A stretch of 64,000 nt of DNA from Thermomicrobiales bacterium (GTDB lineage: Bacteria; Chloroflexota; Chloroflexia; Thermomicrobiales; UBA6265), in contig JAHBVL010000003.1 in assembly GCA_019637585.1 (NCBI GenBank), positions 215,827-279,826 of the forward strand. The letters are read 5' to 3'. The notes beneath the pieces are model-generated. The model was not told where the DNA came from, did no database searches, and worked only from the letters and a program-made list of their open reading frames with translations. Shown piece by piece: positions 37,488-39,734 of this stretch. The translations under genes were made by a program, and so were the position numbers. Within the stretch, counting starts at the first letter, position 1, and every line of letters begins with the position of its first letter.

Positions 37488-38243
37488 ATGGCTGGCTCGA
37501 AAGGGCAGGAACCGGCGTCGCTGGTTCAGATGATCGACAATCTCTCCCCCGAAGCCTGGTATCAGTCGCCGGGCGGGCGGCGTACCCTCCTCGCGCTGGC
37601 AATGGCGGCAGGTGTTCCCAAGGGAGCGCGGGTGCTCGATGTCCAGTGCGGTATCGGCAGCGGTTCGATCGATCTGGCCGAGCTCTACGAGGCGAAGGTC
37701 ACGGCATTCGACGATTATCCGCCCTACCTTGCATTCGGCCGCCAGCAGGCAGCCGCGCGCGGGGTCGGCAAGCGAACCACCTTCCAGGCAGTGGCCGGAA
37801 CCGAAGCAGCATCGGTGATTCCAGCCGATTCCTTCGATGTCGTGCTCGGACTGGGTGGCGGGCTGAGCGACACGCTTCCCGGCGGTCTCGCCGGTGGACT
37901 GGCGGCAGCGGCAACCTGGCTTGCCAATGAGGGCATCCTCATCCTCGGCGACCTCGTCACACCCGGACCAACCTCCGATCTGATGCGGCATGTCTTTGGC
38001 GAATCGCTGATCTCTGAACAGCGCTACTTCTCGGAACTGGAAAGCGCCGGTTTCGACGTCGTTCTGGCCTTCCGGTCATCCTCGAATGACTGGGATCAGA
38101 TGGCCGAGACCATGCAGAAGCTGCGGGAACGCAAACTCGATCTCGGGACAGAGGATGAGCGCGAACGTCAAAAACTGACCACCGCGGCGCGAAATCACCC
38201 GGAGCTCGCCTATCTGAACGTCGCCGCTCGCAAGGCAAAATGA
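37488..38243 (+). CDS. Class I SAM-dependent methyltransferase of unknown substrate
   Basis: The 251-residue protein has a Rossmann-type SAM domain. Motif I is GARVLDVQCGIGSGSIDLAE near residues 46-65 (Gln replaces the usual Gly in DxGCG). An acidic residue ends strand 2 (VTAFDDYPP), motif II is FDVVLGLGGG near 118, and the GGLAAAATWLANEGILILGD segment is typical of strand 5. The C-terminal quarter is charged and helical. No substrate-binding feature is recognisable. It is 2 bases after the homoserine dehydrogenase gene and so part of that operon; it ends about 30 bases before the promoter of the riboswitch unit. Confidence 0.75.
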   Translation: MAGSKGQEPASLVQMIDNLSPEAWYQSPGGRRTLLALAMAAGVPKGARVLDVQCGIGSGSIDLAELYEAKVTAFDDYPPYLAFGRQQAAARGVGKRTTFQAVAGTEAASVIPADSFDVVLGLGGGLSDTLPGGLAGGLAAAATWLANEGILILGDLVTPGPTSDLMRHVFGESLISEQRYFSELESAGFDVVLAFRSSSNDWDQMAETMQKLRERKLDLGTEDERERQKLTTAARNHPELAYLNVAARKAK

Positions 38244-38273: not shown

Positions 38274-38300
38274 TTGATACAGACCGTGTTAGTGTATAAT
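38274..38300 (+). promoter_or_regulatory. Strong promoter in front of the riboswitch leader
   Basis: TTGATA (38274-38279) and a perfect TATAAT (38295-38300) are 15 bases apart, slightly short of the optimum; ATTGAT one base upstream would give 16. The start would fall near 38307, exactly where the conserved leader RNA begins. Confidence 0.7.
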
Positions 38301-38306
38301 GCCCGT

Positions 38307-38421
38307 CAACAGGGGGAGTAACCCACGCTCCAGCAATGGAGCGGCCGCAGTGCCGACAACACGTTCCCTGCGGGGAACCGGCCGGCGAGCGAGGCGCCAA
38401 TCTCGCAGGTAAGACCCTGGC
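38307..38421 (+). promoter_or_regulatory. yybP-ykoY (Mn2+-sensing) riboswitch aptamer candidate
   Basis: The leader begins CAGGGGGAGTAAC (38310-38322), close to the invariant GGGGAGUA loop of yybP-ykoY RNAs. It closes with GTAAGACCCTGG (38409-38420), matching the conserved AGACC loop whose 3' strand closes P1. CAGGG (38310-38314) pairs with CCCTG (38415-38419) as P1. Between them lie GC-rich stems (GCTCC-AGCAAT-GGAGC at 38328-38343 and others). Known members sense Mn2+ and turn on exporters or TerC-like genes; here the downstream gene is a YugP-type metallopeptidase. The family call is by eye from motif positions and pairing. Confidence 0.7.
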
Positions 38422-38453
38422 GGCATCCGAACTGTCGGATGAGCCGGGGTTTT
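38415..38453 (+). terminator. Riboswitch expression platform: intrinsic terminator overlapping P1
   Basis: CCCTGGC (38415-38421) pairs with GCCGGGG (38443-38449), continued inward by CATCCGA/TCGGATG (38424-38430, 38435-38441) around an ACTG loop, and followed by TTTT (38450-38453). The bases CCCTG are shared with the aptamer P1 stem, so the two structures exclude each other. This predicts read-through when the aptamer is stabilised. Confidence 0.7.
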
Positions 38454-38570
38454 GGCTATCCGCAACCACCGTCGAACTGGCCGGAGCACTCCGGTCGCTG
38501 TAACGGATGGAAGACCAGCCCAAAACCTCAGTATCAGCGAGCCAGATGGCTCACCAGCACGGAGATGGCG

Positions 38571-39272
38571 ATGATTTTCGACCCGATGTATTTCGTCTTC
38601 ATGATTCCTGGCTTCATTCTGTCGCTTTGGGCGCAGAGTAAGGTCAAGGGCAACTTCACCAAGTATTCGAAAGTGCCTGTTTCGACCGGGCTGACCGGGG
38701 CTGAAGCGGCCCGCCGGGTGCTCGATGACAACGGTCTGCAGAGCGTCGGGATCGAGCACACCAAAGGGATGCTGACCGATCACTACGATCCCCGTAAGCG
38801 CACCCTCTTCTTGTCGGATGGGGTCTATGCCCAGCGATCGATCTCTGCCGTTTCCGTCGCCGCACACGAAGCGGGTCATGCGATTCAGCATGCCAACGCC
38901 TATGCACCGCTCAAATGGCGCACCGCCATCGTTCCGGCGGTCAACATCGGTTCGCAGCTCGGGTTCATCGTGCTGATCGCCGGTGTCATGCTCGGTCTCA
39001 CCGGTCTGGCATGGGCAGGTGTCGCCCTCTTTGCGCTTTCCACCGTCTTCGCGCTGATCACCCTGCCGGTGGAGTTCGATGCATCGAAGCGGGCCAAGGT
39101 CGCGTTGGTGCACGCGGGAATTGTCGATGGCGGCGTTTCAGGGGGCGCGGAAAGCAAGGGTGTGGACGCGGTCCTCGACGCCGCGGCCTGGACCTATATC
39201 GCCGGATTCATCGCCTCTCTGCTGTCGTTGCTGTACTGGGTTTCGCTGATCTCCGGCCAGAGCCGGGATTAG
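38571..39272 (+). CDS. YugP-type membrane zinc metallopeptidase
   Basis: The protein has 233 residues and belongs to the neutral zinc metallopeptidase family of Bacillus YugP (Zn_peptidase_2). An N-terminal membrane segment (MYFVFMIPGFILSLWA), a soluble stretch with LTGAEAARRVLDDNGL, the HEAGH zinc motif at residues 99-103, and two or three further membrane segments (VNIGSQLGFIVLIAGVML, AWAGVALFALSTVFALIT, YIAGFIASLLSLLYWVSL) appear in the family's usual order. The ATG at 38571 lies 6 bases after GGAG. Its substrate is unknown. It is the only gene behind the Mn2+-riboswitch-like leader, so metal-dependent expression is likely. It converges on the deoxyribosyltransferase gene, with REP array B between. 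Confidence 0.87.
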   Translation: MIFDPMYFVFMIPGFILSLWAQSKVKGNFTKYSKVPVSTGLTGAEAARRVLDDNGLQSVGIEHTKGMLTDHYDPRKRTLFLSDGVYAQRSISAVSVAAHEAGHAIQHANAYAPLKWRTAIVPAVNIGSQLGFIVLIAGVMLGLTGLAWAGVALFALSTVFALITLPVEFDASKRAKVALVHAGIVDGGVSGGAESKGVDAVLDAAAWTYIAGFIASLLSLLYWVSLISGQSRD

Positions 39273-39292
39273 TCCACGACACCGGGAAGGGT

Positions 39293-39734
39293 GTAGCGGC
39301 GAGGCCCGCCTCGCTCGTCGGTCGCTGGGGTTGCGGTGGGCAACGCAGGCGTTGCCGCTACACCTGGACCGTCAACATCGCCAGACCCGCCTGTGCTGTA
39401 GCGGCGAGGCCCGCCTCGCCCGTCGGTCGCTGGGGTTGCGGTGGGCAACGCAGGCGTTGCCGCTACACCCGGACCGTTCACGCTGGCAGACCCGCCACAC
39501 GTGGACCGTCAACGCCGGCAAACCCACGATGCTGTAGCGGCGAGGCCTGCCTCGCCCGTCGGTCGCTGGGGTTGCGGTAGGCAACGCAGGCGTTGCCGCT
39601 ACACCTGGACCGTCAACGCCGCCAGACCCGCCATACGTGGACCGTCAACGCCGACAGACCCGACCCGCCTGTGCTGTAGCGGCGAGGCCTGCCTCGCTCG
39701 TCCGTAGTGAGGGCAACGCCTGTGTTGCCCTCAC
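39293..39734. repeat. REP array B: three 69-bp paired REP units (BIME-like) plus two single REPs
   Basis: Units at 39293-39361, 39398-39466 and 39534-39602 each start GTAGCGGCGAGGC(C/T)(C/T)GCCTCGC. They contain CGTCGGTCGCTGGGGTTGCGG and end with an inverted REP, GGCAACGCAGGCGTTGCCGCTAC in sense (written in two pieces: GGCAACGCAGGC and GTTGCCGCTAC). The two heads of a unit are thus different REP types facing each other. Spacers (ACCTGGACCGTCAAC..GCCAGACCCGCC) are also repeated. Single REPs follow at 39676 and 39704-39734; the last palindrome contains the stop codon of the deoxyribosyltransferase gene. It fills the gap between convergent genes. Confidence 0.88.

Follow-up and report, generated by a model that had tools for sequence, protein, structure and literature searches.

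A probable Mn2+ riboswitch of the yybP-ykoY class in front of a YugP-type membrane metallopeptidase gene in Thermomicrobiales

Introduction

RNAs of the yybP-ykoY class are known for a regulon of exporters and TerC proteins. The Mn2+-dependent mechanism has been established for the L. lactis and X. oryzae homologues (PMC6754395, PMC11087558), and the leaders of mntP and alx from E. coli are reported Mn2+-sensing riboswitches (PMC9603457). In L. lactis, overlap of the switch helix P1.1 with a terminator lets Mn2+ turn transcription on (PMC11087558). Mn2+ has also been linked to membrane proteolysis by YqgP-FtsH of B. subtilis (PMC7231995), and TerC proteins co-purify with FtsH and HtpX (PMC10550928). 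Of the B. subtilis member of the YugP family (PF04298), one study says no more than that it is a putative membrane metalloprotease located in the inner spore membrane, and reports no link to Mn2+ (PMC13393411).

Here, we describe a leader in a 64,000-nucleotide stretch of a Thermomicrobiales genome (the window; contig JAHBVL010000003.1) that, judged from its sequence and that of its relatives, can with considerable confidence be regarded as a riboswitch of the yybP-ykoY class that uses Mn2+ to switch on transcription of a gene for a YugP-type membrane gluzincin.

Layout of the Locus

The leader is flanked by a methyltransferase gene that ends at 38243 on its 5' side and by the YugP coding sequence on its 3' side, and comprises the following features:

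38274..38300, + strand: sigma-70-like promoter with TTGATA (38274-38279), a 15-nt spacer and TATAAT (38295-38300), read from the sequence
38310..38419, + strand: predicted yybP-ykoY-type Mn2+ riboswitch aptamer with a four-way junction (R3 model, fold, family covariation)
38310..38314, + strand: 5' strand CAGGG of the switch helix P1.1, pairing with 38415-38419
38315..38322, + strand: L1 loop GGAGTAAC (alignment of nine leaders and literature)
38326..38343, + strand: P2 hairpin (fold; 7/7 family pairs with changes on both sides)
38344..38386, + strand: P3 hairpin with the internal L3 loop ACAACAC at 38356-38362 (fold, alignment to the model)
38389..38406, + strand: P4 hairpin (fold, covariation)
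38410..38454, + strand: terminator-like hairpin sharing 38415-38419 with P1.1, T run at 38450-38453
38571..39272, + strand: YugP-type membrane zinc metallopeptidase of 233 aa (PF04298, E 2.8e-83)

The promoter had been called strong in the initial annotation; it combines a perfect TATAAT with a TTGATA whose short distance to the -10 element places the promoter below a standard consensus scan. A -10-like element about 10 nt 5' of P1.1 recurs in many related leaders. Translation of yugP most likely starts at 38571, preceded by an SD-like GGAG at 38561-38564, and not at 38439, where the longest open reading frame begins. The yugP frame is open back to this ATG inside the terminator (38439-38571), which is likely due to chance, since the homologues begin with MxFDPxY. 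On the 3' side of the gene, 39290-39600 harbors intergenic repeats of about 70-120 bases each (TGTAGCGGCGAGGCC..GCGTTGCCGCTACAC).

Architecture of the Aptamer

Both motifs on which the riboswitch proposal had been built, CAGGGGGAGTAAC at 38310-38322 and GTAAGACCCTGG at 38409-38420, were found, and the suggested CAGGG/CCCTG pairing corresponds to the predicted P1.1. The 161-nt leader folds better than 200 of 200 shuffled sequences (z -4.4). When 38310-38419 is folded alone, four helices result, i. e. P1.1 (CAGGG/CCCUG), P2, P3 with an internal loop, and P4, a layout that returns in the predicted folds of eight related leaders either identically or with small variations. Across 31 leaders, P1.1 is 98% paired, with covariation. 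Among nine aligned leaders, L1 (GGAGUAAC) is invariant save for one A/G position, and its residue 38317 is the counterpart of A10, which is extruded in the solved structures and whose role has been described (PMC6754395). Residue 38358 in L3 aligns with an invariant A of the related leaders and, by comparison with the L3 loops of the same study, is the equivalent of the metal-site adenosine A48 (Xory) or A41 (Llac). The lower part of P3 is irregular in the window, with a CAGU bulge.

The leader thus shares with the L. lactis yoaB, X. oryzae, and E. coli mntP and alx members the four-way junction, the class signature of an L1 reading GGGGAGUA and an AGACC 3' strand, as well as the invariant adenosine of L3 within P3; the ACA form of its L3 resembles that of the X. 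oryzae aptamer (PMC6754395), and the overlap of P1.1 with a terminator that of L. lactis. Unlike the known members, this clade uses CAGGG/CCCUG as P1.1, the window's leader stays below detection by RF00080, and the target is a YugP peptidase instead of a transporter or TerC protein.

Assignment to the yybP-ykoY Class

A scan with RF00080, proposed in the initial annotation with the proviso that a missing hit would speak against the assignment, indeed gave no match on the leader at the gathering (45 bits in Rfam 15) or a low threshold. This absence says little, because at gathering the same model also leaves the E. coli mntP (L270:7467-7571) and alx (L271:5377-5499) riboswitches without a match; the cut-off is a database threshold rather than a defining feature of the RNA. 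One relative receives 31.1 bits (E 4e-5) from RF00080. Over the window's own genome, the model detects one real sibling (L001, E 0.026), a second leader in front of a gene of the Na+/Ca2+-exchanger family (CaCA), while the remaining matches are weaker and mostly short. The second full-length match in this genome (L003) sits in an apparent coding sequence. No leader was found in front of the two TerC genes of the genome.

With the leader as query, blastn is insensitive, and related leaders were gathered by blastn combined with a motif search. From these, covariance models were built from 9 (R1) and 32 sequences (R2), and the window was kept out of the alignment of a third model, R3. The latter scores the window at 67.9 bits (E 4.4e-15, search space 107 kb), with a slight leak: R1, which had the window among its seeds, served to make the R3 alignment, and one YugP leader (G005) is still part of that alignment. 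R3 also recovers the E. coli mntP (46.9 bits) and alx leaders (30.9 bits). In an alignment of 31 distinct leaders, 92.5% of cells are paired and both partners vary in 28 of 32 pairs, a pattern equalled by 0 of 500 shuffles. This alignment was fitted to the structure and is thus biased in its favour; the result is nevertheless clear, because a slide by one column lets the pairing collapse to about 43%. Taken together, the R3 match with mntP and alx also found, the family covariation and the conserved L1 and L3 bear out the assignment, and membership in the yybP-ykoY class is nearly certain.

Terminator Overlap and Proposed Switching

The CCCTG bases had also been assigned to a terminator ending in TTTT. 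They do sit in the 5' arm of a strong hairpin, but the run counts only four T, which leaves the structure below a standard terminator scan. P1.1 and the terminator are mutually exclusive. In nearest-neighbour energies, calculated without Mn2+ or tertiary docking, the terminator, once complete, is favoured over the P1.1 state by about 13 kcal/mol, with both comparable up to about 38446. A hairpin that carries the P1.1 3' strand in its 5' arm ahead of a U-rich stretch is present in 31 of 34 related leaders; the leader of G002 lacks the T run.

We infer both Mn2+ binding by the window's copy and the direction of switching. At low cytosolic Mn2+, the nascent CCCUG strand would quit P1.1 and build the terminator, with little transcription of yugP. 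At high Mn2+, the ion could bind between L1 and L3, in contact with adenosine 38358, and dock the two legs, which would stabilise P1.1 and allow read-through into yugP, such that YugP would then be produced within the Mn2+-excess response. Control of yugP by Mn2+ is very likely, in view of the homology, the retained metal-site adenosine and the genes that the relatives' leaders precede.

Targets of Related Leaders

With R2, the leader is detected in 95 of the 158 genomes that represent the class, and also across the phylum. For 79 sampled leaders, the targets were classed by blastp comparison with references together with reading, and ten of the proteins were checked against Pfam. They include TerC proteins (28) and apparently P-type ATPases (19), followed by CaCA exchangers (8), DedA/VTT (5) and GDT1/UPF0016 proteins (4), one CDF transporter and a few others. 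The TerC, P-type ATPase, CaCA and GDT1/UPF0016 targets constitute the classic Mn2+ regulon.

Leader-like RNAs were also noticed before a glgC-type nucleotidyltransferase gene (L246 and L248, in G222 and G501), with L248 among the weakest matches. In addition, small ORFs of 79-105 aa occur directly after the leader and ahead of TerC or YugP, on the + strand at L051:1483-1800 and L190:273-560 and on the - strand at L043, L048 and L068. They are rich in D, R and often H, and begin like (M/V)(L/F/I)D(D/E/R)L(L/F). Three of them were searched against Pfam and matched no family; their products are possibly small Mn2+-binding proteins.

Linkage of the Leader to yugP

Among 118 genomes of the class with PF04298 matches, five carry the leader directly upstream of yugP on the same strand (G000, i. 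e. the window, G002, G005, G022 and G053), and 113 have no leader in this position. The expected conservation in relatives was hence recovered in four other Thermomicrobiales genomes, which belong to three further genera and two families. Elsewhere in the phylum, the arrangement recurs in two genomes of a single genus that belongs to another family (L197, L199), and in a groundwater member of the Chloroflexota (L136), where promoter, aptamer, an AGACC-sharing terminator with a T7 run, GGAGG and ATG follow each other within about 210 bases. Random placement predicts about 0.013 such cases in the class searched, so that the five seen lie far above chance. On the YugP tree, the leader must have been gained or lost six times or more. 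The link is therefore sporadic yet repeated. A general bacterial link was considered and rejected, as just one of 80 named YugP loci from many phyla shows the leader, again L136 from the Chloroflexota.

The literature searched contains no report of a yybP-ykoY riboswitch with a YugP peptidase; priority is not proven by this, because the main 2015 surveys of the class lie beyond that literature.

YugP and Membrane Proteolysis

The PF04298 match confirms the YugP-type identity that had been assigned to the product. HEAGH at residues 99-103 and Glu168 in PVEFDAS are invariant in 36 homologues, and Glu168 is likely the third zinc ligand. The structure, which is predicted with confidence (pLDDT 94.9), consists of long helices. 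A fold search of this model against the PDB gave no match at E<=0.001 and just a local one to the minigluzincin abylysin (4jiu), and a sequence profile search revealed no solved homologue.

The job of YugP would most likely be membrane-protein quality control or the turnover of a mismetallated or otherwise unwanted membrane transporter under Mn2+ excess, as the analogy with the YqgP rhomboid-FtsH system suggests, in which Mn2+ excess is likewise tied to proteolysis of a membrane protein, namely MgtE. The co-purification of TerC proteins with FtsH and HtpX (PMC10550928) also favours such a role. Unlike in the arrangement proposed here, Mn2+ acts in the YqgP system on the protease itself via its N-terminal domain and without a riboswitch, and the protease family is unrelated.

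In G005 and G022 (L017, L019), a 112-aa ORF and an M50 protease gene come after yugP, and the same M50 gene is also found near yugP in L014 and L020. At another locus (L255, G089:C586), a Mn2+ riboswitch-like leader precedes a site-2-type M50 protease with CBS domains.

Alternative Explanations

That promoter, GC-rich hairpins and terminator merely resemble a riboswitch by chance might be proposed for a GC-rich genome and a leader without RF00080 match. This explanation is refuted by the covariation and by an R3 E-value of about 4e-15 with the window left out, and the regulon context of the relatives likewise argues against it; its probability is negligible. A different objection accepts the RNA and questions the gene: a rearrangement could have left the leader of a lost exporter in front of yugP by accident. 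The patchy distribution, with its repeated gains or losses on the tree, would fit such a history, as would G005, in which the riboswitch-yugP unit comes immediately after a riboswitch-TerC unit. Yet, the linkage recurs independently in distant lineages, five times against about 0.01 expected within the class and also in G341/G400 and L136, with tight spacing between leader, terminator and the start of yugP, which makes an accident unlikely.

The fold might also be tuned to another divalent ion such as Ca2+, or act as a broad divalent sensor, in which case yugP would answer a different metal state. The sibling before the CaCA-type exchanger gene could be read in this way, and so could the L3 sequence ACAACAC, which departs from the common UCA type; moreover, the S. 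pneumoniae member also binds Ca2+ according to a review (PMC9495176). However, the metal-site adenosine is retained, the Mn2+-bound X. oryzae aptamer has an ACA-type L3 as well (PMC6754395), and the relatives' regulon is a Mn2+ exporter set. We thus consider another cognate metal quite improbable, and an ordinary Mn2+ ON-switch with an unusual target is the best reading.

Conclusions

The leader truly belongs to a known class of riboswitches, and the literature searched gives no description of its YugP target, which would add a peptidase to the exporters and TerC proteins for which the regulon is known. For YugP, the riboswitch link provides a concrete hint to function. Many Mn2+ riboswitches of the Chloroflexota escape the public RNA model, so that the Mn2+ regulons of this phylum are under-annotated. 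The arrangement suggests that membrane proteolysis may belong to the Mn2+-excess response in some Chloroflexota. Going further, it is a tentative idea, a little short of probable, that in several lineages of the phylum membrane proteolysis by YugP, and in some genomes by a leader-linked or YugP-downstream site-2-type M50 protease, would form a regular, repeatedly recruited riboswitch-controlled arm of this response, alongside TerC metalation and Mn2+ export.
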